This document shows, piece by piece, positions 1,035-18,027 of a stretch of 21,425 nt of DNA. The DNA lies in the NCBI GenBank assembly GCA_023400335.1, contig JAEXFF010000386.1, forward strand, positions 1-21,425, read 5' to 3'. Numbering within the stretch: position 1 is the first letter of the stretch; each line of letters begins with the position of its first letter. The DNA is from Bacteroidota bacterium. GTDB taxonomy: Bacteria > Bacteroidota > Bacteroidia > Bacteroidales > Marinifilaceae. A program made the position numbers and the translations under genes. Below the pieces are notes generated by a model. The model saw only the letters and a list, made by a program, of their open reading frames with translations. It was not told the origin of the DNA and ran no database searches.

Positions 1035-3272
1035 TCAATTACAATTTTGTAAAGTATTAATATCAATCCAGGGGGAATCAGGAGATTGCCTTAATTGAAT
1101 CTGCGGTTCACTCTTTTTCAGAACACCCTTTGTCAGAAAATCTTTAATCAGGCAAAATCCAACCTGATTTTCCGTACTCTGCAAAGGAATATATCCATCC
1201 GGTCCTCCATTGTCCATAATCGTCACGTCTCCACCGATATATTCAATATTCTGAAAACCTCCCAAACCATTTACTTTATAATGATTCTTTACGGTAAAAT
1301 TTCCTCCAACATGTTTCAGCCCTCCTCCTGTTACCCTCCAGGAATCCCAATTCCAAATACTCCCCTGTGTCCGGTCGCCATTTAACTCAAAATCTCCTCC
1401 GACCCACGCAAGCGAAGCCAATCCGATACCTCCGTCTGACATCGTTACAGCCGGGTCGATCTTGAAATTACCTTCTACTTTGGAAATTTTACAAAACCCG
1501 GCACCATTGGTCATATCAGACCAATACGTCATTTTCGGGCAATTTTCAATAATCAGGTCTCCGCCTATTTCCGTATATCCCTTAAAGCCGTTACAATTGA
1601 ATAATTCAGGATTATTCCGGAGTACAATTCCCCCTTTACACTCGATGGCTTCAAAGAAATTTTCAGTAGTGGTCAAAGCCGTATTTTCTATTGTCACTGT
1701 CCCTAAAATAGTCGTTACTTTTGTTTTAATAAAGGAGACAGCATGGTCTGTTACATCCGCACCCCGTATCGTCAAATCACCGATCACAGAAGAAGAAGGA
1801 TTAAAATTGTTTACTTCTTCTAATCCGTTCAATACATAATCAGGTACAGAAACCCCACAGGCGGACAAGGAATTGACATCGATAATTTCCCCTGAAGTAT
1901 TCACCAAGGTAATCGTAGCCGTCGGAGAGACAATTCCGAAATCTAAAAAGCCTTTGATCAGACAGTAACCGACCTGATTATCCGTAGACTCCCTGGGGAT
2001 ATCCCCCACGCCTTCTCCGCCTCCGTTATTCATAATCGTCACATTGCCTCCGATATGCAGTATATTCTGGAAACCGCCCAAGCCGTTTACCTTTAAGTGA
2101 TTCATATAAATAAAATCACCTCCGACATATTTTAAACCGCCTCCCCTCACCAGCCATGTATCACAATTCCACAAATCACCTCTGTTGTTAGCCCGGTCTC
2201 CATTCAGTTCAAAATTTCCACCGACACGACTCAAAGCAGCAAAACCAGCCCCTCCTTCGGTCAGCGTAGAAGCAGGATCTACTTTAAAATTTCCTTTCAC
2301 TTCTGTAATAAAACTAAAGCCGGCTCCCGACCAGAAAGTCATTTCCGGACAGTTTTCAATAATCAGATCTCCTCCAATTACAGTATATCCTTTAAACCCA
2401 TTACAGTTATACAAAGCTGCATTATCTTTTAACACAATACTCCCCAGACATTCCACTTTATCGAAAAATCCTTCCGTATTCGTTACTCCGGTATTTTCCA
2501 ATAACATTTTTCCCTTCACGACTTTGATCTTACTGGCAACTCCCGCCAAAACGGCATCATTGATATCACTTCCCCGTACGGTGAGATCCATTACAGTATC
2601 GTTCGCCGGCAAAAATTTCTCAGCATCTCCACGGGATCCGATAATATAGCTCAGAATATCCCCCGCTCCCATTTGTCCGATACGGCTGGGATCGGTCGCT
2701 GCCCCGGGATGATTATTTGCCAAGGTCACCGTACCTTCTATGATACTGTTGTCCAAAAGATATTTCACGACCATTAAACCATACTCATCGGGGGCTCCGG
2801 CTTTATCTTCCCCGAAAATAATATTACCGCTCACGGTCAAACTCCCCCGGAAAGTTTTTAAATGCAATAAACCTGCAATACTTTCTAAAGCAATATTATC
2901 TTCAATTCTCAAACTACCATTCATAAATTTAAACCCTTCCAGGCCCGTTATCGCCTGCAGCTTTTCATTTTCCTGAATGACAAAAGCCACTGTGACAGCA
3001 TTCAGATGAGGCAATGAAAGTTCCGTAATCCCGGTATTGCGAATAATCAAAGATTTTACACTTTGAAAAGTTAAAGTAGACAAATCAGTAATATCTTCTC
3101 CTTCTATCGTCAAGGTACGTATATCCTCCTTTATAGTAAAAGCTTCTACATCTGCCTGAGAGGATAAAGTGTAGTCTTTTCCTTTTTCCAGTTCCATCTT
3201 ATCGTCATCACACGCCCAAGCGAGCAAAGCCAATAAGCCTAATCCTATTAAATTCTGTTTTAAACGTATCAT
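1035..3272 (-). CDS. Surface lipoprotein with three receptor-L-domain-like modules (putative glycan-binding protein)
   Basis: The 745-residue protein has a lipoprotein signal peptide (lipobox LAWAC, Cys21) followed at once by DDD, an export signal typical of surface lipoproteins. The rest is built from three related modules, roughly residues 50-215, 226-484 and 497-745. Each opens with a strand like DLTVRGSDI, continues with beta-helix turns of the form VGGNFEL / IGGDLIIEN, and closes with a block like NQVGYCLIKGFL. Modules 2 and 3 are close copies; module 1 is shorter and diverged. The turns resemble leucine-rich or receptor L-domain solenoids. The gene lies 19 bp after susD, the position normally held by a SusE-like surface glycan-binding protein, so that role is inferred. 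No catalytic motif was recognised. An adhesin-like or scaffolding role is the alternative. Confidence 0.85.
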   Translation of the reverse strand: MIRLKQNLIGLGLLALLAWACDDDKMELEKGKDYTLSSQADVEAFTIKEDIRTLTIEGEDITDLSTLTFQSVKSLIIRNTGITELSLPHLNAVTVAFVIQENEKLQAITGLEGFKFMNGSLRIEDNIALESIAGLLHLKTFRGSLTVSGNIIFGEDKAGAPDEYGLMVVKYLLDNSIIEGTVTLANNHPGAATDPSRIGQMGAGDILSYIIGSRGDAEKFLPANDTVMDLTVRGSDINDAVLAGVASKIKVVKGKMLLENTGVTNTEGFFDKVECLGSIVLKDNAALYNCNGFKGYTVIGGDLIIENCPEMTFWSGAGFSFITEVKGNFKVDPASTLTEGGAGFAALSRVGGNFELNGDRANNRGDLWNCDTWLVRGGGLKYVGGDFIYMNHLKVNGLGGFQNILHIGGNVTIMNNGGGEGVGDIPRESTDNQVGYCLIKGFLDFGIVSPTATITLVNTSGEIIDVNSLSACGVSVPDYVLNGLEEVNNFNPSSSVIGDLTIRGADVTDHAVSFIKTKVTTILGTVTIENTALTTTENFFEAIECKGGIVLRNNPELFNCNGFKGYTEIGGDLIIENCPKMTYWSDMTNGAGFCKISKVEGNFKIDPAVTMSDGGIGLASLAWVGGDFELNGDRTQGSIWNWDSWRVTGGGLKHVGGNFTVKNHYKVNGLGGFQNIEYIGGDVTIMDNGGPDGYIPLQSTENQVGFCLIKDFLTKGVLKKSEPQIQLRQSPDSPWIDINTLQNCN
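1038..1784 (-). repeat. Internal repeat module 3 of the lipoprotein gene
   Basis: This covers residues 497-745 and parallels the module at 1821-2597. Shared landmarks are ECKGGIVLRNNPEL versus ECLGSIVLKDNAAL, NCNGFKGYT, GGDLIIENCP, FELNGDR, KVNGLGGFQNI and NQVGFCLIK. Similarity is also evident in the DNA, for example 1531-1630 against 2340-2440, which points to a fairly recent tandem duplication. Boundaries are approximate. Confidence 0.8.
1821..2597 (-). repeat. Internal repeat module 2 of the lipoprotein gene
   Basis: This covers residues about 226-484. It is the closest relative of module 3 and aligns over its whole length, with small insertions such as the extra glycines in NNGGGEGVGDIP. 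Boundaries are approximate. Confidence 0.8.
2628..3125 (-). repeat. Diverged internal repeat module 1 of the lipoprotein gene
   Basis: This covers residues about 50-215. It shares the opening strand (IRTLTIEGEDITD against VMDLTVRGSDIND) and the closing block (EYGLMVVKYLLDNSIIEG against NQVGYCLIKGFLDFGIVS) with the other two modules but lacks most of the central turns. It reads as an older, shortened copy. Confidence 0.55.
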
Positions 3273-3291: not shown

Positions 3292-4821
3292 TTATTGTTT
3301 ATTCAAATCCTGTTCTCGCTGGGGAATAGGGAAAAAATAAGCATATTCTTCCTTAACTTGCTTATTGGTAATTTCCTGCATCACCCGATTGATTCGTCTG
3401 AGTTCAAACAACCCGTGCCCTTCAAAGGCTAATTCGAAAGTCAATTCTTTCCATATCGCTTCCCGAAAGGCTGTCTTATCCAAACCGGGAGTCAATTCTC
3501 CTAAACCAGCCCGTTCCCGTACAGCATTCACCCATTTATAGCCCTCCTGTGTAGGACCGGCAGCTTCTGCATAAGTCAAAGCAACTTCTGCAAAACGGAT
3601 TAAATATATATTCGCACTCGTGCGGTTTGACAAAGAAGCGGGGTCCGTATATTTACGGCAGAACGGATGATAAAAAGCATTCTCCGTCGGGTTGGAACTA
3701 TTAATATTATCCCGGCTCCAGGTAGCCAAAACCGTTCCATTCTCATTATAAATAGTAGAAACCATAAGCTTTTTCCGCAAATCCAGATCGTCAAATGTAT
3801 CGTAAAAATCAGCATCCACCCGGAAAACACTCCAGCAAGACTGATTCCCGTCTATCACTTTCTGAACTCCCGCTCCACCTGTCAGTGAAGAAGAAATCCA
3901 AATCACCGGCAGACTGATCCCAAACATTTGAGGAGTCTGTGAGTAGCTTCCTTCCATACCACTTGCCTCCCGGTTCATCGAAGTGATAAAAATATGTTCG
4001 CTGCCATCTACAAAATGATTTACATCATATACCCGTAACAGATCGGGATCCAGTGAATAAGTGGTTTGTCCATTTACAACTTCCCCTGCATATTGGGCAG
4101 CTTTCGCATACATGGCCTCTCCGTCTTCCACCCATTCATAACCCGGAGCCCCTGTCATCTTCGAAGAAGCTAATGTCAGATACACTTTTGACAGTAAAGC
4201 CTGAGCCCCGACTTTATCCGCCCTTCCCTGATGCTTGGATATCCCGCACAAAGAAATAGAGGCCTCCAAATCTTCTATAATTAAAGTATAAATCGTCTCT
4301 ATGGAAGCCAAAGGAGCATTCGTCTCATTGGAACCCTGAACAGACTTTACCCGCAACGGCACTTTTCCATAAGTCCGTACCAGCATAAAATAATTAAAAG
4401 CCCTTAAAAAATAAGCTTCCCCTAAGATCTGGTTCTTATTTTTAAGATCAATATTATTCATCTTTACCACATTTTCGAGCACGGAATTAGCGCGGTTTAT
4501 ACTGAGATAAGCATATTTGAAAAAATAAAGGAATTCATCTGTATTCGGATTACAATCCCAGATATAAAGGTTGGTTTCATTCACTCTTCCATAGTTTTTA
4601 TACTGATTAGTGGTCACATCTGTCAGATAAAAGAGGAAACGGGCACCGTATTCAATATAATTTATCGGTGAATAAGCATACAATAAAGCAGATAAAGCAT
4701 CAGCTTCTGTATTATAATAATTTTGGTTGGAATAGACTCCATAAGGCTTTTCTTCCAGAAAATCCGAACAGGCAGTTAATCCAATCCAAAACAATGAAAT
4801 ATAAATACAAATCTTTTTCAT
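3292..4821 (-). CDS. SusD/RagB-family nutrient-binding outer-membrane lipoprotein
   Basis: SusD proteins form the lid of the SusC transporter and bind glycan at the cell surface. The 509-residue product has a lipoprotein signal (lipobox LTAC, Cys18) followed by SDFLEEKP, the usual SusD start. The helical TPR-like segment that packs on SusC is visible around residues 132-158 (LGEAYFLRAFNYFMLVRTYG). The conserved C-terminal features are RFAEVALTYAEAA (409-421), VNAVRERAGL (431-440), ELAFEGHGLFELRR (463-476) and a terminal FFPIPQREQDLN. The length is normal for the family. The gene starts 46 bp after susC and ends 19 bp before the repeat-module lipoprotein gene, so all three are likely co-transcribed. 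The bound glycan cannot be read from the sequence. Confidence 0.96.
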   Translation of the reverse strand: MKKICIYISLFWIGLTACSDFLEEKPYGVYSNQNYYNTEADALSALLYAYSPINYIEYGARFLFYLTDVTTNQYKNYGRVNETNLYIWDCNPNTDEFLYFFKYAYLSINRANSVLENVVKMNNIDLKNKNQILGEAYFLRAFNYFMLVRTYGKVPLRVKSVQGSNETNAPLASIETIYTLIIEDLEASISLCGISKHQGRADKVGAQALLSKVYLTLASSKMTGAPGYEWVEDGEAMYAKAAQYAGEVVNGQTTYSLDPDLLRVYDVNHFVDGSEHIFITSMNREASGMEGSYSQTPQMFGISLPVIWISSSLTGGAGVQKVIDGNQSCWSVFRVDADFYDTFDDLDLRKKLMVSTIYNENGTVLATWSRDNINSSNPTENAFYHPFCRKYTDPASLSNRTSANIYLIRFAEVALTYAEAAGPTQEGYKWVNAVRERAGLGELTPGLDKTAFREAIWKELTFELAFEGHGLFELRRINRVMQEITNKQVKEEYAYFFPIPQREQDLNKQ

Positions 4822-4867: not shown

Positions 4868-7800
4868 TCAAAATTTTAATTCCAGTCCGGTAGTAAACGT
4901 ACAAGTCCTCGGGAATGCCACAGGTCCGCGACCATTTTCCCCGACTTCCGGGTCATATTCACTCACATGAGAAAAAGTAACAGGATTGCTTACATTCAGA
5001 TATACCCGCAGATTTTTTACCCACTTCAGATAACTCGAAGGTAAAGTATAACCCAGCGTTATATTCTGGATACGTAAGAAAGAACCATCTTCCACAAACC
5101 AGGAAGAAGCATAATAAGAACGGTCAGCACGTAAACTGGGCCGGTTGTTGTTAGGTGCCTCCGGTGTCCAGCGTTTTTCCCGTAAAGAAGGCGCATCCAG
5201 TTTCCGGGGTGAAAAAATATCATTTCCGTAAACAGCATAGAATAAAACGGATAAATCCAATCCGGATTTATGAGATAGTTGTAAACTTAAACTGGAGGTA
5301 AATTTAGGATTCGGATCTCCGATAATACAACGTGCGTCCGGATCCAAAGAACCATCCTCACGCAATCCCGCATAATTGAATTCTCCGGGACGGGTCATTT
5401 TTGTCGGATTAGCCGGCATATTCTGTATGATTCCGTCTACCGGATATCCGTAAAACACATTGATCGGCTTCCCGATAGCCAAAATATTCAAATAAGCATC
5501 GTTAAATACACTTCCCCCGTAAGGTTGGTAACGAAGCCCGTTCGCATCTTCAATATAACCGGAATCTTCCTGTGTACCAATGTTGATTACCTTATTGCGA
5601 TTGGCACTGAAAATTAATCCGGCATTTAAACGGAAGGCCCCTTCCGTAATAATCCGTCCATTTACCGTCAACTCAAAACCCCGGTTCCGGATTTCCCCGT
5701 CGTTTACCCATACTTTATCATAACTGCTACTGGGTGGCATTAATTTTTCACGTAATAAATCAGTCGTAACCTTTTTATAATAATCAAAAGTTACATCCAA
5801 ACGATTATTAAACAGCGAAAAATCTACCCCAATATCAAACTGAGAAGTTTTTTCCCATCCTAACTCGGCATTCGGCATACCTCCCCACAATACATAACGA
5901 TCTCCGATACCTTCCCTTCCGACTTCTTTCCCGACGCCATAAATTACATACTCTTCCCCATCCACATAATAATAATTACTCCCGAATTGTTCAAATGTCT
6001 GGTAAGGGGAAATTCCCTGATTTCCGGAAACACCATAACTCGCCCGGATTTTCAGGTTATCGAATAATTCCAGATTTTTAATAAATTCTTCTTCCGACAG
6101 CCTCCAGCTCACAGCACCCGAGGGGAAAAATCCCCATTTATTATTTTTCCCGAACTTGGAAGAACCATCAGCTCTGCCCGTAAACGTAAACATATAACGA
6201 TTCTTATAAGTATAGTTAATCCGGCTAAAAGCGGAGGCTAGCTCGGTTTCACTCCGGTAATTCCCGACCAGTTTAATCTCTGCCCCAGCTAAATTCTCTT
6301 CCTCTAAAACGTGGTTCTGAAATCCGCGACCCGTAATACTAGATCCCTTATTGACATTATCTTCATAGCTTATCCCCGCCATAACCGAGAAATTATGATC
6401 TTTCCCAAATAATTTATTATAAGTAAGGTAGGCATCTATACTATAATTCAGGTAATTCCCGTTTGTAATTCCTCCTTCTCCCTCAAACCGATCTCCCGCA
6501 TCTGTATATTGGGGAGGATTGTAAAAAGAAGTATTGCTATTTCCGGTCCGTACATTTCCCTGAAGAGCAAAATTCAAATCAGATATGATCTCCCAATCCA
6601 TTTTTACCAAAGCATAAGCATCTACATTGTCGGCAATGTTTTTCCGCTGTTCAGTCATCATTACCGGGTTGCCGTAATCTTTATCATACGCTTTAAAATA
6701 AGTGCCATCCCCGTTATAAACCGGAAATAAAGGATTACGGGAATAATCCATTCCATAATTGTAATTCCGTTTTCCTTTAAAAATACCGGCTTTGGTTTTT
6801 ATGGACAAATTCTGTGTCACATCATTGTCATAAGACATATCCAGGGACAATTTATCGTAATCATCCCCGATTTGCATCCCTTCCGCCTTATAATATCCTA
6901 AACTGATATAGTAACGGCTTTTCTCTGAACTTCCTTCCACACCTAAATTATAATCCTGTGTAACTGCCGTACGGAAAATATAATCAGTCCAGTCTGTATA
7001 ATAAGGCCATTCTCCTTCCCTGATTTCCGCTATAGAAGGATAATACGCACCGTTTACATCTTTTTTACCAATATAAAGGGCTTCCAATCCAGCATTTTCA
7101 TAAGCTTCATTTTCCAACATTGCCATTTTTAAGGGGTCTTTCCAATAATCGAGCTTCTTACTGAAAATACTGACTCCTACCTTACCATTCACCCAAACGT
7201 TTGCTTTTCCCCCTTTTCCATTTTTGGTGGTGATCATGATCACTCCGTTGGCTCCCCTCGAACCGTAAATAGCCGTAGCCGAAGCATCCTTTAAAACTTC
7301 AATGGAAGAAATAATATTGGGATTTATAGAATTTAAATTCCCGGCATCTCCCATAGGAACACCGTCCACAACGACAAGAGGAGCATTCGAACCATTGATA
7401 GAACTAACGCCCCGGATCCGGACCGTTGCTCCCCCCTGAGGATTATCCTCCGAATTGTTGATGATCTGCAGACCCGCAATCCGTCCTTGCAATAATTTCT
7501 CAACAGAACCCGAAGACACTTTTGTTACCTCAGCTGCTTTTACAGAAGCAACACTTCCTGTCAAATCACTTTTTTTCATCGTTCCGTACCCTACTACAAC
7601 CACATCCTCCAACAACTGGGATTCTTCTGCCAATAAGACATCAATTTTCGACCGGCCTGCGACCTTTATTTCCTGAGTGGAATATCCCACAAAACGAAAT
7701 TCTAACGTACTTTGAGCATCCGTCTTAATTGTATAAATTCCATTAATATCTGTCGTTACCCCCGAATAGGTTCCTTTCACTATGATTGTAACCCCCGGCA

Positions 7801-7918
7801 GAGGTTGTCCGTCTCCTTTGCTTTTTACTACACCGCTTACCGATATATCCTGAGCACACAACGTATGAATACCGATAAACAGCGAAACCAGACCAAAGAA
7901 TAATTTCCGTTTCATCAT
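4868..7918 (-). CDS. SusC/RagA-family TonB-linked outer-membrane transporter
   Basis: SusC proteins are 22-stranded outer-membrane barrels that import oligosaccharides with energy from TonB. The 1016-residue product has a Sec signal peptide ending near TLCAQ (residue 23), a carboxypeptidase-regulatory-like domain (about 26-97, with PLPGVTIIVKG and TDINGIY), a TonB-box-like EDVVVVGYG (104-112), the SusC signature KKSDLTGSV, a plug domain (about 115-235, including VRIRGVSSINGSNAPLVVVD and ATAIYGSRGANGVI) and a long beta-barrel ending in a terminal aromatic residue (FTTGLELKF). No N-terminal STN extension is seen, so signalling to an anti-sigma factor is not expected. It heads the minus-strand operon. 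The start could be the first Met or the second, one codon later. Confidence 0.97.
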   Translation of the reverse strand: MMKRKLFFGLVSLFIGIHTLCAQDISVSGVVKSKGDGQPLPGVTIIVKGTYSGVTTDINGIYTIKTDAQSTLEFRFVGYSTQEIKVAGRSKIDVLLAEESQLLEDVVVVGYGTMKKSDLTGSVASVKAAEVTKVSSGSVEKLLQGRIAGLQIINNSEDNPQGGATVRIRGVSSINGSNAPLVVVDGVPMGDAGNLNSINPNIISSIEVLKDASATAIYGSRGANGVIMITTKNGKGGKANVWVNGKVGVSIFSKKLDYWKDPLKMAMLENEAYENAGLEALYIGKKDVNGAYYPSIAEIREGEWPYYTDWTDYIFRTAVTQDYNLGVEGSSEKSRYYISLGYYKAEGMQIGDDYDKLSLDMSYDNDVTQNLSIKTKAGIFKGKRNYNYGMDYSRNPLFPVYNGDGTYFKAYDKDYGNPVMMTEQRKNIADNVDAYALVKMDWEIISDLNFALQGNVRTGNSNTSFYNPPQYTDAGDRFEGEGGITNGNYLNYSIDAYLTYNKLFGKDHNFSVMAGISYEDNVNKGSSITGRGFQNHVLEEENLAGAEIKLVGNYRSETELASAFSRINYTYKNRYMFTFTGRADGSSKFGKNNKWGFFPSGAVSWRLSEEEFIKNLELFDNLKIRASYGVSGNQGISPYQTFEQFGSNYYYVDGEEYVIYGVGKEVGREGIGDRYVLWGGMPNAELGWEKTSQFDIGVDFSLFNNRLDVTFDYYKKVTTDLLREKLMPPSSSYDKVWVNDGEIRNRGFELTVNGRIITEGAFRLNAGLIFSANRNKVINIGTQEDSGYIEDANGLRYQPYGGSVFNDAYLNILAIGKPINVFYGYPVDGIIQNMPANPTKMTRPGEFNYAGLREDGSLDPDARCIIGDPNPKFTSSLSLQLSHKSGLDLSVLFYAVYGNDIFSPRKLDAPSLREKRWTPEAPNNNRPSLRADRSYYASSWFVEDGSFLRIQNITLGYTLPSSYLKWVKNLRVYLNVSNPVTFSHVSEYDPEVGENGRGPVAFPRTCTFTTGLELKF

Positions 7919-7963
7919 GTTAATTTTATTATTTTTCGTTAGTAATCACGCAACACCTTCATT

Positions 7964-7985
7964 TTTAAAACGTTTTCGTCGAAAA
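7964..7985. promoter_or_regulatory. Candidate operator, copy 1
   Basis: AAAACGTTTT (7967-7976), a palindrome like those bound by LacI-family regulators, overlaps a second palindrome TTTTCGTCGAAAA (7973-7985). The 11-bp word TTTAAAACGTT recurs at 8123-8133. The site lies about 50-60 bp upstream of the susC start, downstream of the candidate susC -7 element. Confidence 0.4.
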
Positions 7986-8040
7986 AAACAATGAAAATTC
8001 TACATTTACAACAATTTTCAAAAATGAATCAGCGCACATA

Positions 8041-8048
8041 CAAATGTA
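8041..8048 (-). promoter_or_regulatory. Candidate -7 element for the susC operon
   Basis: Read on the minus strand this is TACATTTG, a full match to the Bacteroidota -7 consensus TAnnTTTG, about 120 bp upstream of susC. No good -33 TTTG is found at the expected distance, which would fit a promoter that depends on an activator. This is only a candidate. Confidence 0.35.
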
Positions 8049-8122
8049 AACGAGCTGAGGATATCTTACTTATACTATATTGACTAAGAATATGCATTTT
8101 TATACATTAACATTGTAAATAA

Positions 8123-8133
8123 TTTAAAACGTT
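8123..8133. promoter_or_regulatory. Candidate operator, copy 2 (TTTAAAACGTT)
   Basis: This is an exact 11-bp repeat of 7964-7974, 159 bp away, and sits inside a loose palindrome with AATT at each end (8121-8141) centred on AACGTT. Two copies bracketing the candidate susC promoter would suit a DNA-looping repressor. Confidence 0.35.
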
Positions 8134-8168
8134 AAATAATTGATAACCAAAATATAAAACAGATCACA

Positions 8169-8201
8169 TTTCGTCGGTATCGCACAATAATGTTAAATTT
8201 G
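8169..8201 (+). promoter_or_regulatory. Candidate promoter of the aldolase operon
   Basis: TAAATTTG (8194-8201) matches the Bacteroidota -7 consensus TAnnTTTG. A near -33 element, TTTC (8169-8172), lies 21 nt upstream and is part of the repeated word TTTCGTCG. The implied leader is about 115 nt and includes the inverted repeat at 8267-8295. Confidence 0.45.
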
Positions 8202-8266
8202 CAGGAAATAAGGATTAAGTATAAATTCTATCACTCTTGGTCAATATTGTACTATTTGCCTATCAA

Positions 8267-8295
8267 CTTTCGATCTACATTTGACATGTCGAAAG
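8267..8295. promoter_or_regulatory. Inverted repeat in the aldolase leader
   Basis: CTTTCGA (8267-8273) and TCGAAAG (8289-8295) are separated by 15 nt, and a smaller nested pair ACAT...ATGT lies inside. It ends 29 bp before the aldolase ATG. It could be an operator or a leader hairpin. Confidence 0.4.
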
Positions 8296-8324
8296 AAAGC
8301 AATGAGTTATTTTAATCCAAAAAG

Positions 8325-9167
8325 ATGTTTGTACCTTTCAAAGAAATTTTAAAAGATGCTTATTTAAACAAATATGCCGTAGGAGCTTTCAATTGTTTAA
8401 GCCTGGAAAATGCAATGGGGGCTATTCAAGCCGCAGAAGAATTACGTTCCCCTATTATTATCCAGTTAGCCGAAGTACAATTTCCCTATTCTCCAATAGA
8501 AAAAATGGCTCCCGTATTTATTGAAAGCGCAGAAAAAGCAAGCGTACCGGTATGCGTGCATTTGGATCACGGTCAAAGTTTAGAGACTTGTGTAAGGGCA
8601 ATGAAACTGGGTTTTCAATCGGTAATGTATGACGGAGCCAATCTTCCTTTGGAAGAAAATATACGGAATACGAAAGAAATCGTGCGAATTGCCCGGGCTT
8701 TGAATATTGAGGTGGAAGCTGAATTGGGAAAAGTCGGAGAGGCCTCCCAAAAAAGAGACGAATCAACCGACATATTTACCGATGTGGACGAATCTGAATA
8801 TTTTATCCGCCGGACCGGAATTGATGCACTAGCTATCGCTATCGGGAACCTGCACGGAAAATATATCGCTACGCCCTGCTTAAATATTAAACGTTTATCT
8901 GAAATTAATGAACGGAATCATTTGCCTTTGGTCCTTCACGGTGGAAGCGGCACCAGCGTAGAAGACTTTAAATCCTGTATACATAATGGTATCTGCAAAA
9001 TTAATGTGGCGACAGCAATCCAGATTGCCGTCACCCGTAAATTAGAGGAGTATTTTAAAACTGCAACCCACCCCAATTATATTGACATGAAATATCAAAT
9101 GGTGGAAGCTTCAAAAGAAACGGTAAAAGAACACATGCTTTTATTTGAAAGTAACGGAAAAGTCTAA
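8325..9167 (+). CDS. Class II (zinc-dependent) ketose-phosphate aldolase
   Basis: The enzyme should cleave a ketose 1-phosphate or 1,6-bisphosphate into DHAP and an aldehyde in the cytoplasm. The 280-residue length matches the KbaY/GatY (tagatose-bisphosphate aldolase) branch of class II aldolases rather than the longer E. coli FbaA type. Visible residues are HLDHG (79-83; catalytic Asp81, zinc ligand His82), EAELG (131-135), zinc ligand His177 in NLHGKY, His205 in HGGSG, and the DHAP-phosphate loop INVAT (226-230). It is the first gene of the plus-strand operon and is followed after 4 bp by a PfkB kinase. Substrate choice cannot be read from the motifs; the neighbouring kinase and isomerase suggest it handles their product rather than acting in housekeeping glycolysis. 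Confidence 0.93.
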   Translation: MFVPFKEILKDAYLNKYAVGAFNCLSLENAMGAIQAAEELRSPIIIQLAEVQFPYSPIEKMAPVFIESAEKASVPVCVHLDHGQSLETCVRAMKLGFQSVMYDGANLPLEENIRNTKEIVRIARALNIEVEAELGKVGEASQKRDESTDIFTDVDESEYFIRRTGIDALAIAIGNLHGKYIATPCLNIKRLSEINERNHLPLVLHGGSGTSVEDFKSCIHNGICKINVATAIQIAVTRKLEEYFKTATHPNYIDMKYQMVEASKETVKEHMLLFESNGKV

Positions 9168-9171
9168 AAAG

Positions 9172-10194
9172 ATGAGAAATGGAATCATAGCCGCCGGCTC
9201 ATGGCTGGTGGACACTGTAAAGTTTATAGAAAAATATCCTTCTTCCGGTAATTTAGTTACGATCGAAAAAATTGAAAAGGGATTAGGGGGATGCGCTCAT
9301 AACGTCCTGGTCGACTTAGCCCGCTTATCCGCCAATATACCCCTTTACGCCGGAGGATGTATAGGAACAGACGCTAACGGGGATTTTGTCATGAGTGAAA
9401 TTCACCGTTATGGAATCGATGACCGGTATATGTATCGTCTGGAAGATATACCGACTTCTTACACAGATGTTATGTCTGAAATTCATGGAAATTCAAGCCG
9501 GACATTTTTTCATTTCAGAGGCGCAAACGCTTGTTTTTCCAGGAATCACATTCTTCCTATAAATGTGCCTGCCCGTATTTTCCATTTGGGTTATTTACTT
9601 TTACTGGATGAACTGGACAAAGCCGACGAACAGTATGGCATCAAAGCAGCCCGGGTTTTAAAAGAGCTTCAGGAAAAAGGATACCGTACCTCAGTAGATG
9701 TCGTCTCAGAAGAAAGCGACCGTTTCCGGAAAATACTTCTTCCTTGTCTTCCTTATATCGATTACCTGATTATAAATGAAGTAGAAGCCGGCGCCTGTTG
9801 TGGTTTACCGCTCAGGGATTCCCAAGGAATGCTCTTGCCTGATAACGTAAAGGCAGCTTCAGCGTCTCTCCTGCAGGAAGGAGTGAACCAAGTGTGCGCT
9901 ATTCATTTCCCGGCAGGGGGCTATGCCCGTAATAAGCAAGGAGAAGCCTATCTCATCCCTTCTATCCCTGTGGAAAAAAATGAAATCGTTTCTACAGTAG
10001 GAGCCGGGGACGCTTTTTGTGCAGGAATGCTCTACGCTCTACACGAAAATCTGCCTCTTCAGGAAGCTCTAATATTGGCAAACACTGCTGCCCGTTTTAA
10101 CTTATATCATGCAACAAGTACAGGCGGAGCACCCGGCATTGATAAATTAAAAAATTTTATAACCTTAAATTATTCCTCTTATGAAAAGAAGTGA
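9172..10194 (+). CDS. PfkB-family carbohydrate kinase
   Basis: PfkB kinases phosphorylate sugars such as fructose, tagatose or ribose with ATP. The 340-residue product shows the N-terminal Gly-Gly motif (GLGGCAHNVLVDLARL, residues 37-52) and the C-terminal signature STVGAGDAFCAG (274-285) with the catalytic base Asp280. I take the ATG at 9172, 4 bp after the aldolase stop. A longer reading from TTG at 9145 would overlap the aldolase and adds no family-like sequence. The end overlaps the next gene by 14 bp (ATGAAAAGAAGTGA), indicating translational coupling. Its place between an aldolase and a sugar isomerase suggests it phosphorylates the ketose made by that isomerase, probably at C1. The actual substrate is unknown. 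Confidence 0.92.
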   Translation: MRNGIIAAGSWLVDTVKFIEKYPSSGNLVTIEKIEKGLGGCAHNVLVDLARLSANIPLYAGGCIGTDANGDFVMSEIHRYGIDDRYMYRLEDIPTSYTDVMSEIHGNSSRTFFHFRGANACFSRNHILPINVPARIFHLGYLLLLDELDKADEQYGIKAARVLKELQEKGYRTSVDVVSEESDRFRKILLPCLPYIDYLIINEVEAGACCGLPLRDSQGMLLPDNVKAASASLLQEGVNQVCAIHFPAGGYARNKQGEAYLIPSIPVEKNEIVSTVGAGDAFCAGMLYALHENLPLQEALILANTAARFNLYHATSTGGAPGIDKLKNFITLNYSSYEKK

Positions 10195-10843
10195 AATTAA
10201 CCAATATATCCAGGAAGCAATCCGCTTTTTTGAATCCAATTGCTTTTATCTTCCCTTATGGGCCGGATGGACTCCTGCCGACTGGCAAAGCAAAGGCAAA
10301 GAATGTGAAGAAATACGCCTTAACAATCTGGGCTGGGATATTACCGACTTCGGGAAAGGCCATTTTTTACAAGAAGGCCTGACTTTAGTGACCATCCGTA
10401 ACGGGAACCTAAAATACGACCATAAACCCTATTGCGAAAAAATCATGATGGTTCGGGAAAAACAAATTACCCCCATCCATTTCCACTGGAAAAAAATGGA
10501 AGATATCATTAACCGGGGAGGAGGTACACTTTGTATTCAATTGTGGAAAGCCAGTAAAGAAGAAAAACGTACCACAGAAAACTGCATTGTCAAAATAGAC
10601 GGAATCAAGACGGAAATAAAAAGCGGAGGAATGGTCTACCTGGAAAAAGGACAGAGCATTTGTTTTGAACCTTATATGTATCATACGTTCTGGGCAGAAA
10701 ATGGAAATTGTATGGTAGGAGAAGTATCAACCGTCAATGACGATGCCAACGATAACCGGTTTTTTGAACCCATAGGCAGATTTCCGGAGATAGAAGAAGA
10801 CGCCCCGGCAAAATATCTGCTTTGTACAGAGTATCCGCAATAA
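10181..10843 (+). CDS. D-lyxose ketol-isomerase family cupin (likely D-lyxose/D-mannose isomerase)
   Basis: This family interconverts D-lyxose and D-xylulose, and members also convert D-mannose to D-fructose, using a divalent metal such as Mn. The 220-residue product carries the cupin signature HFHWKKMEDIINRGG (100-114): His100, His102 and Glu107 with normal HxH-X4-E-X6-G spacing. The fourth ligand is His168 in YMYHTFW. The N-terminal half has the family's Trp/Pro-rich stretch (LPLWAGWTPADW) and the segment GWDITDFGKG. Its start overlaps the kinase end by 14 bp. With a beta-mannosidase-like gene next downstream, conversion of mannose to fructose is the likeliest job, with lyxose or a modified sugar as alternatives. 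The family call is firm and the substrate is inferred. Confidence 0.9.
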   Translation: MKRSEINQYIQEAIRFFESNCFYLPLWAGWTPADWQSKGKECEEIRLNNLGWDITDFGKGHFLQEGLTLVTIRNGNLKYDHKPYCEKIMMVREKQITPIHFHWKKMEDIINRGGGTLCIQLWKASKEEKRTTENCIVKIDGIKTEIKSGGMVYLEKGQSICFEPYMYHTFWAENGNCMVGEVSTVNDDANDNRFFEPIGRFPEIEEDAPAKYLLCTEYPQ

Positions 10844-10871
10844 AGAAAGTTGAACCGTGAAGAATGATGTA

Positions 10872-13097
10872 ATGAAAACAGTACAATTCCTGGAGTGGAC
10901 GGTAGGTTATACTCCAGTCAAAGAAAACGAACCGGAAGAATTTATTTCGGCAACAGTACCCGGTGCCGTCCAGTTAGATATTGCAAATGCCAAAAACTAT
11001 CCTTCCCTCTATTTCAGTGATAATTATAAAAAACTGAACTGGACAGAAGATATGTATTATATCTATCAAACCGAATTTAAAAAACCGGAATTATCCATAG
11101 GAAAATCTTTATTTTTTATTTCAAAAGGAATTGATTATCAATTTGAAATTTATCTCAACGACCAATTTTTAGCAGCACAGGAAGGAATGTTCACTCCTGT
11201 AGAAATTCCCCTGACAACAGGTCTGAAAGAAGAAAACAAATTGAAGATAATCGTCTTCCCCGCTCCCAAAAAGCATGCTTCCCCTGCCGACCGCACTCAG
11301 GCATCTCAGGTCGTGAAACCCGCTGTCAGTTACCTTTGGGATTGGCATCCCCGTCTGATCCCCCTTGGAATATGGGATGATACTTATCTTGAAATCCGGC
11401 CTTTATCTTACATTCAGGAAGTATATCTGGATTATGAATTAACAGCAGATTTCAAAAAAGTATGTATTCAACCCCGCATAAAAGGACAGGAACTAAACGG
11501 ATGCGATTACCACTGGCAATTAAAAGATCAGCAAGGAAAGGTTGTATTACAACTGACAGGCTGTTTCACTGCAACCCCAATTTTACCGGAGATAATAGTG
11601 GAAAACCCGCGATTATGGTGGCCTCACGACCATGGTACCCCTTATCTCTATTCTTCAGAATTTACGCTGCTCAATTCATCGGGACAAGAATTGCAGTCTG
11701 TTACTCAAAAGCTAGGATTCAGAAGAATTAAATTAGTGATGAACGAAGGGGCCTGGCAGGAACCCGCAGGATTTCCTAAAACCAGAAGTGTTCCTCCCGC
11801 TCAGTTTGAAATAAACGGGAAACGCATTTTTGCCAAAGGTTCTAACTGGGTAAATCCTGAAATATTTCCGGGAAGTATTACAAAAGCCCGCTATTCCACA
11901 CTCCTGGATATGGCTGTAGAAGCTAACTTTAATATTTTAAGAGTATGGGGAGGAGGAATTGTCAATAAAGAAATTTTTTATGATTTATGCGACGAAAAAG
12001 GGATCATGGTATGGCAAGAATTTCCGCTAGCCTGCAATAATTATCCGGATGACGCCCATTATTTGTCGGTCCTAAAACAAGAAGCAGTCTCTATTTTAAA
12101 ACGCCTGCGGAATCATCCCTCCCTCTGCTTATGGTGCGGTGGAAATGAACTCTTCAATAACTGGTCGGGAATGACGGATCAATCGCTCCCACTCCGTTTA
12201 CTGAATAGCCTTTGCCTGGAATATACCCCTCAGATTCCTTTTAATCCTACTTCCCCCGTTATGGGAATGGCACACGGCCATTATGTCTTTTACGATCAGG
12301 GCAAGGAAGTCTTCCAAACGATGAATAAAAGTCATAATACAGCCTATACGGAGTTTGGCATGCCGGGCATTTCTCCCCGGGAAGTATTGGAAAGCATTAT
12401 CCCTCCATCCGAATTATGGCCACCCCGTCCGGGCACAGCCTGGGAAGCTCATCACGCTTTCGGAGCCTGGCACGGACAAACCTGGCTCTGTGAAGATATT
12501 TTGGAAATGTATTTCGGCAAAGCCCAAACATTAAACGAACTTATTGCTCAAAGCCAATTATTACAATGCGAAGGTTATAAGGCTATCTTCGAAGAAGCCC
12601 GGCGCCAAAAACCTTATTGCGCCATGGCACTCAACTGGTGTTATAACGAACCCTGGCCCTCTGCTGCCAATAATTCTCTCCTTGTTTACCCGGCTATTCC
12701 CAAGCCTGCCTTTTATGCCGTCGGGCAATCCTGCCGTCCCGTTTGTGCCAGCGCACGCCTCAGTAAATTCGTATGGCAGGAAGGGGAATGTTTTTCTGCT
12801 GAAATTTGGATACTGAATGATTTATTCCAGGATTTATCCGATAAGAAAGTGACCGTCTCACTGGATACCGGAGAAAAAAAGATTACTATTTTAAAATGGC
12901 ATACCGAAATCATCAAAAGTAACACGAATTTAGCCGGCCCGACCGCCCGATATAAACTGCCACATTTACAATCAGACCGTTTCAGGCTCCTACTGGAAGT
13001 TGAAAATCATCCGGAATTGAATGCTGAATATACGCTTCTCTATCGCCCGTCGAAAACAAAGGCAAATGGAACAGCTATGCTGAATATCACAGAATAA
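10872..13097 (+). CDS. GH2 beta-mannosidase-like glycosidase, cytoplasmic
   Basis: GH2 enzymes remove non-reducing beta-linked sugars with retention. The N-terminal jelly-roll (WTEDMYYIYQTEF), the Ig-like part and the TIM barrel (FEINGKRIFAKGSNWV, ILRVWGGGI, IMVWQEFPLAC) follow the beta-mannosidase layout. With the ATG at 10872 taken as residue 1, the acid/base is Glu426 in WCGGNE and the nucleophile is Glu494 in AYTEFG. The length, 741 residues, is short for bacterial beta-mannosidases, which are often above 800, so C-terminal domains are reduced. No signal peptide is present, so it should act on imported oligosaccharides. An in-frame GTG at 10857 is an alternative start. Related GH2 activities, such as exo-glucosaminidase, cannot be excluded. 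It sits 28 bp after the isomerase gene. Confidence 0.88.
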   Translation: MKTVQFLEWTVGYTPVKENEPEEFISATVPGAVQLDIANAKNYPSLYFSDNYKKLNWTEDMYYIYQTEFKKPELSIGKSLFFISKGIDYQFEIYLNDQFLAAQEGMFTPVEIPLTTGLKEENKLKIIVFPAPKKHASPADRTQASQVVKPAVSYLWDWHPRLIPLGIWDDTYLEIRPLSYIQEVYLDYELTADFKKVCIQPRIKGQELNGCDYHWQLKDQQGKVVLQLTGCFTATPILPEIIVENPRLWWPHDHGTPYLYSSEFTLLNSSGQELQSVTQKLGFRRIKLVMNEGAWQEPAGFPKTRSVPPAQFEINGKRIFAKGSNWVNPEIFPGSITKARYSTLLDMAVEANFNILRVWGGGIVNKEIFYDLCDEKGIMVWQEFPLACNNYPDDAHYLSVLKQEAVSILKRLRNHPSLCLWCGGNELFNNWSGMTDQSLPLRLLNSLCLEYTPQIPFNPTSPVMGMAHGHYVFYDQGKEVFQTMNKSHNTAYTEFGMPGISPREVLESIIPPSELWPPRPGTAWEAHHAFGAWHGQTWLCEDILEMYFGKAQTLNELIAQSQLLQCEGYKAIFEEARRQKPYCAMALNWCYNEPWPSAANNSLLVYPAIPKPAFYAVGQSCRPVCASARLSKFVWQEGECFSAEIWILNDLFQDLSDKKVTVSLDTGEKKITILKWHTEIIKSNTNLAGPTARYKLPHLQSDRFRLLLEVENHPELNAEYTLLYRPSKTKANGTAMLNITE

Positions 13098-13107
13098 AAT
13101 CTCGGTT

Positions 13108-14541
13108 ATGAAAATTTCATTCATTATCAGTATATTTTTGCTACTCTATAGCGGAATACAGGCAGAAGTAAAACTTCCTGCCATACTGGGAGATCATATG
13201 GTTCTTCAGCAAAATAGCCTGATAAACTTATGGGGAAAAACAGATCCTGGCCTGCAGGTCAGGATCACCCCTTCCTGGAATGATTCCTGCTATATAACGA
13301 AAGCTGACACAAAAGGCAAATGGAAGGTAAAGGTACCAACTCCTGCAGCGGGCGGCCCTTATTCCCTCACCTTCGACGACGGCGACATACTAAAACTTCA
13401 ACACATCCGGATAGGCGAAGTCTGGATTTGCTCCGGGCAATCCAATATGCAGATGCCATTAAAAGGTTTCCCTTCACAACCTGTTTTCCGGTCTACAGAA
13501 ACCTTATTGGAAGCAAATCGCTACCCGGATTTAAGTTTGTTTACAGTCAGCCGTCAACCCCATTCTTCCCCACAAGAAGATTGTTGTGGACAATGGTCTC
13601 CCTCTTCCATGGAAAGTGCAGCCAACTTCAGTGCCGTAGGTTATTATTTCGCTAAATACTTATCCGATGTATTGAATATTCCTATCGGTATAATCGAAAG
13701 TGACTGGGGAGCTACCCGGATCGAAACCTGGATGCCCCTCGAATCTGCCTTGAAGATAGATGCCGCAATTTTGCAATCAGACGCTACCGCAACTTATTTC
13801 GATAAAACGGCAGTCCTCTACAACGGAATGATCGCTCCAATCACGCCTTATACCGCCAGGGGTTTTATCTGGTATCAGGGAGAATCCAACAAAGGGCATC
13901 ACGACAAATATGCTGCCAATATGGCCGAAATGGTACATTCCTGGCGTCAGCTTTGGGGAAATCCGGAAATGCCTTTTTTCTATGTGGAAATTGCCCCCTT
14001 TGATTACGATATTCCGGAACATCAGTTTGAAAAGCAACCCAATCCCATTCTCCGTCCTTTGCTTGTAGAAGCCCAGCTTCAGGCTTTAAATCTCATACCC
14101 TATTCCGGTATAGCCGCTACATCAGACATCGGAGATTCCTGTTTTATTCACCCTTCCCGTAAGGATTTGGTCGGCCAACGACTGGCTTTGCTGGCCCTCC
14201 ATCAAACTTATTCCCAAAAAGGTCACGACACTTATGGTCCACGGTTCGAATCCGTAACTTATGAAAACGAAAAAGCAATCGTAAAATTTACATCAGAATC
14301 CGAATTAACCCCCTTATACCGTCCTGTCTGCGGTTTTGAACTCGCAGGTGACGACCGCATATTTTATCCGGCACAAGCTCAAATCAAAAACGGCTCCGAA
14401 GTTGAAATTGTATGTACAAAAGTCAAATGCCCGAAAGCCGTCCGGTATGGCTTCAAAAATTTTATACGGGTAAACCTTTATAATACGATGGGACTACCGG
14501 CTTTCCCTTTCCGGACAGACCGCTGGAATACTTCCCGTTAA
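13108..14541 (+). CDS. Secreted SASA-family acetylesterase (sialate O-acetylesterase-like)
   Basis: Members of this SGNH-type family remove O-acetyl groups from sialic acid or, in many PULs, from xylans and mannans. The 477-residue product has a Sec signal peptide (cleavage near IQAEV, residues 17-21) and the usual N-terminal beta domain (LGDHMVLQQ...LWGKTDPG). The catalytic Ser112 lies in CSGQSNMQMPL, the oxyanion-region block is IWYQGESN (254-261), and His348 lies in GDSCFIHPSRK. The residue two before this His, often Asp (DIHP), is Phe here. The gene follows the GH2 gene by 10 bp. In this locus it probably deacetylates the incoming glycan in the periplasm; sialic acid is unlikely because no sialidase or sialate catabolic gene is visible. 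Confidence 0.9.
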   Translation: MKISFIISIFLLLYSGIQAEVKLPAILGDHMVLQQNSLINLWGKTDPGLQVRITPSWNDSCYITKADTKGKWKVKVPTPAAGGPYSLTFDDGDILKLQHIRIGEVWICSGQSNMQMPLKGFPSQPVFRSTETLLEANRYPDLSLFTVSRQPHSSPQEDCCGQWSPSSMESAANFSAVGYYFAKYLSDVLNIPIGIIESDWGATRIETWMPLESALKIDAAILQSDATATYFDKTAVLYNGMIAPITPYTARGFIWYQGESNKGHHDKYAANMAEMVHSWRQLWGNPEMPFFYVEIAPFDYDIPEHQFEKQPNPILRPLLVEAQLQALNLIPYSGIAATSDIGDSCFIHPSRKDLVGQRLALLALHQTYSQKGHDTYGPRFESVTYENEKAIVKFTSESELTPLYRPVCGFELAGDDRIFYPAQAQIKNGSEVEIVCTKVKCPKAVRYGFKNFIRVNLYNTMGLPAFPFRTDRWNTSR

Positions 14542-14587: not shown

Positions 14588-15988
14588 ATGAAAAATAATA
14601 CACATGTTTCTTTTCGGGAAAAAGTAGGATATGGCCTGGGAGACGCCGCCTCTTCTATGTTCTGGAAACTCTTCGGGATGTATCTCTTATTTTTCTATAC
14701 TGATATTTTCGGTTTAAACGCCGCAATTGTCGGTACAATGTTTCTGGTAACCCGGATTTGGGATTCTTTAATCGATCCGTTAGTAGGAATACTGGCCGAC
14801 CGTACGTCTACCCGCATGGGGAAATTCCGCCCTTACATTTTATGGACAGCCCTTCCTTTCGGGATCCTCGGTATCCTGACATTCAGTTCCCCCGATTTCA
14901 GCCCTACAGGAAAAATTATATATGCCTACATCACTTACGGCGCAATGATGATGGTATACTCCTTAATCAATGTACCTTATGCCTCTCTGCTGGGAGTCAT
15001 TTCAAATTCTCCCCAAACCCGTACAGCATTGTCTTCTTACCGGATGATTTTCGCTTTCGGAGGAAGTCTGCTCGCCCTCTTACTGATCGAGCCTTTAGTA
15101 CAATTCTTCGGGCAAACAGATACCGGAACCGTCGATGCCACAAGAGGATGGACTGCAGCTGTCAGCGTATTTGCCATTCTTGCCATACTGTTTTTCCTTT
15201 GTACTTTTTTCTGGACCCGTGAAAGAGTACAACCCCTGAAAGAAGAAAAAAACAGCCTACGGGAAGATTTCTGCGACCTGCTACGCAATAAACCCTGGTG
15301 GATATTACTGGCATCCGGCATATCTGCTTTAATTTTCAACTCGATACGGGACGGAGGGGCCGTCTATTATTTCAAATATTACGTAGCCTCGGATACGACC
15401 ACTTCTTTCGGTCATCTGTCACTGACTACTCTTTTTTTCGTTCTCGGTCAGGCAGCCAATATCGCGGGCATTCTTCTGGTAACCCCTATCTCTAATCGCA
15501 TCGGTAAAAAGAAAACTTATTTATATGCTATGCTCTTGGCAACTGTCCTGAGTATCGCATTTTATTTTGCCGGTAAACAAGATATCTTTCTGATCATGAC
15601 ATTACAAGTTCTTATCAGTATGTGTGCCGGAAGTATTTTTCCTCTATTATGGAGTATGTATGCTGACATTACGGACTATTCGGAAATACGTACCGGCCGA
15701 CGGGCAACCGGACTAATATTTTCCTCCTCTTCTATGTCCCAAAAATTCGGATGGACACTGGGAGGGGCAGTTACAGGCTGGCTATTAGCAGCCTTCGGCT
15801 TCCAGGCAAACGTAGCACAAAATACAGAAGTCCTTACGGGCCTGAAATTAATGCTCAGTTTCCTGCCAGCAGTCGGGACCCTCTGCTCTGTTATCTTTAT
15901 TTTCTTTTATCCTTTAAATGAAGAAAAAATGAAACAAATTGAACAACAATTGTCCGAACAACGTCAAAAAAAAGCACAAGACCGATAA
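14588..15988 (+). CDS. GPH-family sugar/cation symporter (MelB-like MFS transporter)
   Basis: The glycoside-pentoside-hexuronide family carries glycosides or sugars across the inner membrane with Na+ or H+. The 466-residue product is strongly hydrophobic with about 12 expected membrane segments. The N-terminal signature GYGLGDAASSMFWK is present, followed by RIWDSLIDPLVGILADR (56-72), where Asp59 and Asp63 correspond to the cation-site aspartates of E. coli MelB, and MGKFRPYILW (77-86). The Lys/Gln-rich C-terminal tail is cytoplasmic. As the last gene of the plus operon, 46 bp after the esterase gene, it probably delivers periplasmic mono- or oligosaccharides to the cytoplasmic GH2 enzyme and sugar-phosphate trio. 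Confidence 0.93.
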   Translation: MKNNTHVSFREKVGYGLGDAASSMFWKLFGMYLLFFYTDIFGLNAAIVGTMFLVTRIWDSLIDPLVGILADRTSTRMGKFRPYILWTALPFGILGILTFSSPDFSPTGKIIYAYITYGAMMMVYSLINVPYASLLGVISNSPQTRTALSSYRMIFAFGGSLLALLLIEPLVQFFGQTDTGTVDATRGWTAAVSVFAILAILFFLCTFFWTRERVQPLKEEKNSLREDFCDLLRNKPWWILLASGISALIFNSIRDGGAVYYFKYYVASDTTTSFGHLSLTTLFFVLGQAANIAGILLVTPISNRIGKKKTYLYAMLLATVLSIAFYFAGKQDIFLIMTLQVLISMCAGSIFPLLWSMYADITDYSEIRTGRRATGLIFSSSSMSQKFGWTLGGAVTGWLLAAFGFQANVAQNTEVLTGLKLMLSFLPAVGTLCSVIFIFFYPLNEEKMKQIEQQLSEQRQKKAQDR

Positions 15989-17491: not shown

Positions 17492-17588
17492 AAGTTTAAC
17501 TGTTTGTTTTGTACACCACATTGATTTAAGAAAATATTAACGGTTTAAAAATATTAATAATTACTCGTTTCTAAAAATTATTCTATAC

Positions 17589-17945: not shown

Positions 17946-18027
17946 TAACCTGAAATTTTGACTGAATTTCATAAAAACGGGAAAATCGATTCCATCTGAA
18001 TTAAAAAACAACTAATTGTATTATTTT

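Follow-up and report, generated by a model that had tools for sequence, protein, structure and literature searches.

Genes for lyxose/mannose utilisation, named lmuX, Y, Z, I, A and K by Yang et al., have been described on the OI167 island of enterohaemorrhagic Escherichia coli (EHEC) (PMC10128022). In the parts of that paper drawn on here, LmuI is cited as a mannose/lyxose isomerase that turns mannose into fructose, fructose kinase activity is reported for LmuK from an ADP-coupled assay, and the isomerase-kinase-aldolase scheme is drawn, in 2023, as a hypothetical pathway (PMC10128022). The same parts describe an operon induced by lyxose, and a manA mutant which, with LmvR overexpressed, grows on mannose and requires lmuKAIZYX to do so (PMC10128022). 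Here we analysed 21,425 nucleotides of a Bacteroidota genome (Marinifilaceae; contig JAEXFF010000386.1; hereafter the window), in which adjacent genes encode the same three kinds of enzyme: an aldolase (ALD), a PfkB kinase (KIN) and an isomerase (ISO). The window carries a susC/susD pair together with a glycoside hydrolase gene and is, on that basis, a SusCD polysaccharide utilisation locus. Our analysis suggests that the operon is probably the inner part of a SusCD locus that harvests mannosides, and that it runs an Lmu-type route, from mannose to fructose, fructose 1-phosphate and finally dihydroxyacetone phosphate (DHAP) plus D-glyceraldehyde.

In the model that we favour, SusCD would import an oligosaccharide across the outer membrane, an exported esterase may remove acetyl groups, a GPH-family symporter would move the short mannoside on into the cytosol, where a leaderless GH2 enzyme would release mannose. 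ISO would then convert D-mannose to D-fructose, KIN would phosphorylate the fructose at C1, and ALD, with a predicted DHAP-phosphate site and no C6-phosphate site, would cleave fructose 1-phosphate into DHAP and D-glyceraldehyde. The initial annotation of this DNA had proposed these mannose steps, and they remain the best reading of the locus, one that is probably right given the missing arginine of ALD, the clade that KIN shares with LmuK, the recurrence of the trio and the mannosidase-like neighbours. The pathway is not novel as such, because the E. coli lmu scheme had already been published (PMC10128022). The annotation's impression that the set was undescribed holds in part: for E. coli lmuKAI it does not, but in the open-licence literature we found no account of the trio in a SusCD locus or of the dehydrogenase swap set out below, which is weak evidence of absence. 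New would be the setting in a glycan locus, the lack of a C6-phosphate site and the exchangeability of the final enzyme; the trio itself is known from E. coli.

The last step was assessed from the residues of ALD. Among the E. coli proteins compared, the highest identities are to LmuA and YdjI (Table 1), followed by KbaY and GatY (35% each) and FbaA (23%). The aldolases encoded beside isomerases of this family (isomerase-linked aldolases) were placed in one alignment with four E. coli enzymes (FbaA, GatY, KbaY and YdjI) and seven further PF01116 aldolases, taken from six of the genomes that carry the loci. The positions of FbaA His110, His226, His264, Gly265, Ser267, Asn286 and Thr289, which we take to form the metal and C1 (DHAP) phosphate site, are retained in ALD, and by these predicted metal ligands and DHAP-phosphate residues ALD is a member of the PF01116 class II aldolase superfamily. 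At the position of FbaA Arg331, presumably the C6-phosphate ligand and donated by the adjacent subunit, every full-length isomerase-linked aldolase of the Lmu kind (22 of 22, LmuA included) has a different residue, namely Ile (as in ALD itself), Val, Leu or Ala; arginine is present in FbaA, GatY, KbaY and six of the seven other carrier-genome aldolases (L105-L109 and L111). Ser61 of FbaA, which we assume to bind phosphate, is Ser in those six aldolases as well and Thr in GatY and KbaY; the same 22 of 22 have Ala there, inside a common AEV(Q/H) segment that reads AEVQF in ALD. The AEV motif and the missing arginine are thus common to ALD and LmuA. Judged by sequence, ALD lacks the arginine that would hold the C6 phosphate in class II fructose-bisphosphate (FBP) and tagatose-bisphosphate aldolases. 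Because this arginine is absent and the metal and C1-phosphate residues are retained, ALD is best read as a fructose-1-phosphate aldolase. On balance a C1-monophosphate is favoured as its substrate, and such a substrate would imply a kinase acting at C1.

YdjI, whose RefSeq name is octuluronate-1-phosphate aldolase, also lacks an equivalent of Arg331, and it joins the 22 aldolases at a support of 92/85 in a tree of 35. For the LmuA gene of E. coli NZ_CP015995.1 (L083), and for the other matches listed, the RefSeq product name is 'ketose 1,6-bisphosphate aldolase' despite the absent arginine. One isomerase-linked aldolase, that of L020, is of the FBP aldolase type and retains the arginine; those of L037 and L075, which are partial (<230 residues) and more distant, were left out of the residue table and have no DPR segment, the one bearing this arginine, in a separate alignment. 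Tyr at residue 109 of the L076 enzyme is unique among the isomerase-linked rows. The seventh of the other carrier-genome aldolases (L110, G005:C42:283692-284498) has no DPR arginine either; it lies away from the isomerase locus of its genome and adjoins another PfkB-type match. The passages of PMC11194214 drawn on here hold nothing on the roles of C6-phosphate-site residues.

KIN is 40% identical to LmuK, 25% to RbsK and 24% to YdjH. In a tree of 55 kinases, KIN and LmuK fall in a set of 21 rows supported at 100/96, outside which lie RbsK, YihV, FruK, PfkB, PsuK and YdjH; the root as drawn is a midpoint only, and the placing of these six is itself unsure because of their long branches. A structure model of KIN (predicted local distance difference test score 92) has the ribokinase fold. 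Compared with the PDB, ribokinases come top by Z score (36.8 at rank 1), but by Foldseek E-value the sulfofructose kinase YihV is first, in a near tie with ribokinases, and the fold is therefore silent on which hydroxyl is phosphorylated. PfkB kinases with both regiochemistries exist. We read KIN as a putative fructose 1-kinase of the LmuK clade.

ISO shares 47% identity with LmuI, which matches 3KMH/3MPB, in turn the one PDB relative that ISO has at E <= 0.001. Its residues H100, H102, E107 and H168, unvarying among the six isomerases compared, are presumably metal ligands, and ISO is predicted to be a PF07385 D-lyxose/D-mannose isomerase akin to LmuI. In E. coli S51, the gene for a protein near-identical to 3KMH/3MPB stands between an ABC transporter, which precedes it, and genes for an aldolase and a PfkB kinase, which come after it in that order; O157:H7 Sakai has the same gene order. 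By blastn, 400 of 5426 complete E. coli genomes match the stretch of three genes from a Pasteurellaceae relative, and the ten matches listed cover 17% of the query, inside the aldolase gene. PF07385 isomerases also occur in another setting: in six loci (L007, L009, L014, L017, L027 and L056) the isomerase (~10001-10670) directly follows a sialidase-like gene, with a nan-like set and SusCD, and none of the kinds of kinase, aldolase or dehydrogenase studied here lies nearby. The nan-like set of L014 additionally holds an SSF symporter, a dihydrodipicolinate synthase-family lyase and YhcH. N-acetylmannosamine should not suit a ketol isomerase as substrate.

To survey the locus, a genome collection was scanned with an alignment of 30 isomerases, and the best 80 of 495 relatives were taken as loci; the hidden Markov models used on them (for KIN, for ALD, for a second, distant PfkB kinase called KIN2, for an MtlD-like dehydrogenase and for others) were built largely from those same 80 loci. 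The three genes recur in the window order in 8 of 80 loci (L001-L006, L018 and L019), and ALD and ISO occur with KIN2 in 11 of 80. The complete locus, including SusCD, the lipoprotein, GH2, the esterase and the GPH symporter, is found in one of the 80, L002, at 40-66% identity. We then considered 295 genomes from the order of the genome that carries L002, the nearest relative, with cut-offs of E <= 1e-55 for the aldolase, 1e-20 for the isomerase and 1e-55 for the kinase. The isomerase is present in nine, the window-type aldolase in three and the kinase in four. All three aldolase genomes (G001, G172 and G278) have the three genes on one contig within ~5 kb (P ~2e-5); G001 was the centre genome of the draw, selected for its trio, and without it the count is two of two. 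The fourth kinase genome, G028, has no isomerase match. The suspicion that the trio might not be conserved as a unit, which the initial annotation had raised against itself, is accordingly rejected. One of these trios (L112, G172:C6:56500-64500) lies between two sulfatases, with two LamG-type genes separating ALD from KIN; its glycan is perhaps a sulfated mannoside.

The last enzyme of the set appears to be exchangeable. Within 4 kb of the isomerase, a PF01116 aldolase is found in 23 of the 80 loci, an MtlD-like dehydrogenase in 17 (L011, L012, L013, L043, L049, L055 and 11 more) and both in none. KIN or KIN2 is present in 49 loci: KIN with the aldolase in 11, KIN2 with the aldolase in 11, KIN with the dehydrogenase in seven, KIN2 with the dehydrogenase in 10, and either kinase alone in five each. 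One locus has the aldolase without a kinase. In the remaining 30, kinase, aldolase and dehydrogenase are all absent nearby, L041 and L061 being examples of such loci near a contig end on one side; in L016 a dehydrogenase ~7 kb away on the opposite strand was left uncounted. Among the 49 kinase loci the mutual exclusion of aldolase and dehydrogenase gives a Fisher value of 1.6e-6, with kinship ignored. To allow for kinship, switches of partner were counted on a tree of 40 labelled kinases, a set from which 15 rows had been dropped but which retains L042 and L075 with their long branches; there were at least four across well-supported branches and five on the best tree; for the KIN rows alone there are four changes, three of them forced, and 31 of 500 shuffles were as low. 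L013 holds relatives of SusCD (52-54% identity), GH2 (50%), the GPH symporter (46%), KIN (57%) and ISO (59%), with a dehydrogenase and no aldolase within its 20 kb. A protein in which the dehydrogenase C-terminal domain is joined to a KIN-like kinase (P0141) may be an assembly fault, because its contig has just 1737 bases.

The plain reading of this pattern is that aldolase and dehydrogenase would be alternative exits for the kinase product. The L011 dehydrogenase has as its best PDB relative 3H2Z, a mannitol-1-phosphate 5-dehydrogenase; only the L011 and L042 enzymes were compared with families, and L042 is distant (99 bits). MtlD acts on mannitol 1-phosphate and fructose 6-phosphate. If the kinase product is fructose 1-phosphate, the MtlD-like enzyme might reduce C2 to give mannitol 1-phosphate and re-oxidise C5 to give fructose 6-phosphate; action at either end is conceivable because mannitol is two-fold symmetric. 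We regard this sequence of events as rather doubtful. If true, it would move a phosphate between the two ends of fructose in a redox-neutral way and with no mutase, and the aldolase/dehydrogenase swap poses a concrete and cheap question for enzymology.

The sugar was judged from neighbouring genes. In 19 of 80 loci, the isomerase has a same-strand GH92 gene, of the exo-alpha-mannosidase family, no more than 4 kb away (family assignment by Pfam on one member); these loci include 12 of the 23 with an aldolase and 3 of the 17 with a dehydrogenase. GH38 is found in that range in six of 80. Together with the beta-mannosidase-like GH2 of the window, these neighbours indicate mannose, which we therefore favour over lyxose or sulfo-sugars. 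For the host metabolism, we considered 12 genomes with isomerase and kinase, nine of which have the aldolase. At a curated equivalog cut-off, 1-phosphofructokinase is found in 0 of 12 vs 4 of 14 controls, and all 12 have weaker PfkB-type matches, so that a divergent 1-phosphofructokinase could be missed. With none above the cut-off, fructose 1-phosphate would need another exit. Glycerate kinase was tried as an exit for glyceraldehyde and dropped: it is present in 6 of the 12 genomes, five of the nine aldolase-type ones among them, with no pattern.

Several observations weigh against the proposed route. The best phmmer matches of ALD in the PDB are enzymes named FBP or ketose-bisphosphate aldolase (7NCC, 193 bits), with YdjI (6OFU) sixth at 170 bits, and ALD passes the NCBIfam subfamily TIGR00167, ketose-bisphosphate aldolase (247 vs 215.6 bits). 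It reaches none of the NCBIfam equivalog cut-offs listed for aldolases; the aldolase of the Pasteurellaceae relative L070 passes the equivalog 'ketose 1,6-bisphosphate aldolase', and ISO is below the cut-off of its own equivalog. Of five PDB enzymes aligned, the four with the name FBP aldolase contain the DPR segment; the remaining one, 8Q58, whose deposited name is ketose-bisphosphate aldolase, is without its arginine, so that this residue may be an imperfect marker. The position of FbaA Glu182, in a poorly aligning loop, is not Glu in 20 of 22 (Glu only in LmuA and L070), and in the 35-aldolase tree the 22 enzymes of the Lmu kind, LmuA included, lie on one side of a branch supported at only 81/44. 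From E. coli, the parts of the paper drawn on report that deletion of lmuKAIZYX leaves wild-type growth on mannose unaffected and that lmuK and lmuA are dispensable for growth of EHEC on lyxose; the LmuK assay does not fix the position of the phosphate, because ADP was measured (PMC10128022). Eleven of the 12 genomes have a phosphomannose isomerase domain. The usual mannose route is therefore not lost and the bypass is not the sole possible one, and a loss of ManA in the carriers was rejected. Finally, no glyceraldehyde-handling gene was recognised in the operon.

The same evidence can be read in other ways. KIN might make fructose 6-phosphate, which would go straight into glycolysis, with ALD serving the pathway as an additional FBP aldolase. 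This would suit the MtlD-like genes that replace the aldolase in 17 of 80 loci and whose known substrates include fructose 6-phosphate, the two regiochemistries of PfkB kinases, and the bisphosphate-aldolase names behind ALD's top PDB scores and its TIGR00167 match. However, both the arginine and the serine of the C6-phosphate site are missing from ALD; each of the four trio genomes G001, G002, G004 and G006 has elsewhere a second PF01116 aldolase with both residues; and aldolase and dehydrogenase would then be superfluous in the operon. The residue alignment disfavours ALD as an extra FBP aldolase, and we consider this alternative unlikely, though not negligible. The dehydrogenase-type genomes also hold further PF01116 aldolases, one in G003 and two in G005.

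A different sugar would change the products and keep the chemistry. With D-lyxose, the route would run through D-xylulose and xylulose 1-phosphate to DHAP and glycolaldehyde, for which the aldolase chemistry is equally suitable, and PF07385 is named for lyxose. The E. coli data bear on it from both sides, LmuI being a lyxose/mannose isomerase of a lyxose-induced operon, but lyxose being stated to be rare in nature and the kinase and aldolase genes, as given above, not needed for growth on it (PMC10128022). The initial annotation had offered lyxose as an option; it stands as chemically possible, but the neighbours, a mannosidase-like GH2 here and GH92 genes elsewhere, lend it nothing, and we find it very improbable. 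A modified sugar from the glycan, deoxy or otherwise manno-configured, would yield a different aldehyde. The SASA esterase and an MGH1-like hydrolase nearby, the two sulfatases that flank the trio of L112, and the AEVQF pocket of ALD where FbaA has its presumed phosphate-binding Ser could all be accommodated by such a substrate. Against it, none of the deoxy- or sulfo-sugar families was recognised by Pfam among the 15 window open reading frames (ORFs) screened, the sulfo-sugar kinase YihV lies outside the KIN set, and the E. coli relatives act on mannose in the passages drawn on (PMC10128022); we give it little credence. For the same two reasons, absence of sulfo-route families from the screened ORFs and a KIN outside the YihV branch, the sulfo-sugar pathway that the annotation had also raised was rejected. 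The mannose route through fructose 1-phosphate accordingly remains the one that we favour.

The window holds a divergent locus (Table 1), with the SusC, SusD and lipoprotein genes on the minus strand and six closely spaced genes on the plus strand; both divergent promoters are presumed to sit in the region between them. With KIN starting at its ATG, the gaps are +4, -14, +13 (GH2), +10 (esterase) and +46 bp (GPH), which bears out the 4-bp gap, the 14-bp overlap and the coordinates first annotated; a start at the TTG would make KIN overlap ALD. The families of the trio are likewise as annotated. Among the PDB matches listed, the closest relatives of the GH2 protein are beta-mannosidases (5N6U, 236 bits; BtMan2A, 205 bits), and 9NFE, labelled just 'GH family 2', scores 198 bits; matches labelled with another activity are all below 46 bits among the 60 of 80 listed. 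We therefore call it beta-mannosidase-like, its substrate being predicted from this similarity. The N-terminus of the esterase looks signal-like by eye, and L002 has a 40%-identical counterpart of the surface lipoprotein in the same position behind SusD. Megablast found zero matches to 8325-13100 among plasmids. Just beyond the operon, 16187-17521 (-) encodes a lipoprotein-like hydrolase of the MGH1/GH63/trehalase clan, for which neither tblastn nor clustering shows a counterpart at the corresponding position of L002, and 18016-18870 (+) encodes a PepSY-like protein with a signal-like N-terminus, for which no link to the pathway was seen.

Table 1. Coordinates and family matches of the operon and of the divergent SusCD genes in the window
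Feature	Position	Strand	Remarks
ALD	8325-9167	+	280 aa; PF01116 F_bP_aldolase, 312.9 bits; 39% identity to LmuA, 38% to YdjI
KIN	9172-10194 (ATG; alternative in-frame TTG 9145)	+	PfkB PF00294, 128.8 bits
ISO	10181-10843	+	220 aa; cupin; Lyx_isomer PF07385, 318.5 bits
GH2, beta-mannosidase-like	10857-13097	+	GH2 Pfam domains; no signal peptide by eye
SASA-type carbohydrate esterase	13108-14541	+	PF03629, 60.6 bits; 9H4U, 256.6 bits; 7KMM, 239 bits
GPH-family sugar:cation symporter	14588-15988	+	PF13347, 352 bits; TIGR00792 above cut-off
SusC-like TonB-dependent transporter	4868-7918	-	Plug, CarbopepD_reg_2 and beta-barrel domains; divergent from operon
SusD-like lipoprotein	3292-4821	-	SusD-like_3 and SusD_RagB
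Surface lipoprotein, weak Receptor-L match	1035-3272	-	PF01030, 29.1 bits (cut-off 21.8); no single stretch passing
Divergent intergenic region between susC and operon	7919-8324	.	Without ORF of 80 aa

If our model is right, some gut-type Bacteroidales would route glycan-derived mannose past mannose 6-phosphate and phosphofructokinase, much as the liver pathway does for fructose. The LmuA and LmuK steps of E. coli would gain a defined chemistry, with a C1 phosphate and a monophosphate aldolase, and the database labels 'fructose-/ketose-bisphosphate aldolase' on such aldolases would be wrong.

Among known systems, the tagatose-1,6-bisphosphate aldolases GatY and KbaY resemble ALD at ~35% identity and share its NVAT motif, but they have the DPR arginine that ALD lacks. 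YdjH and YdjI are alike in that a PfkB kinase adjoins a PF01116 aldolase without the C6-phosphate arginine; unlike in the window, no PF07385 isomerase is annotated beside them, and YdjH, which RefSeq names octuluronate kinase, falls outside the kinase set of KIN. The sulfo-Embden-Meyerhof-Parnas pathway (YihS, YihV and YihT) has the same logic of isomerase, ketose 1-kinase and aldolase and the same kinase fold, but none of its genes was recognised by Pfam among the 15 window ORFs, YihV belongs to another branch, and YihS and YihT are, we believe, of families other than those of the window isomerase and aldolase. Set beside E. coli lmuKAIZYX, the order is A-K-I in the window and I-A-K in lmu, and SusCD, GH2, an esterase and a GPH symporter accompany the trio instead of an ABC transporter and the LmvKR two-component system; because no regulator such as LmvKR and no ABC transporter was recognised among the Pfam-screened ORFs, we do not class the window operon as an lmu operon proper. 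The phosphate position is unassigned in the parts of the lmu account drawn on (PMC10128022), and in our reading of the window it would be C1. The two systems nevertheless share their three kinds of enzyme, and the Lmu proteins are the nearest to the window trio among the E. coli proteins compared.

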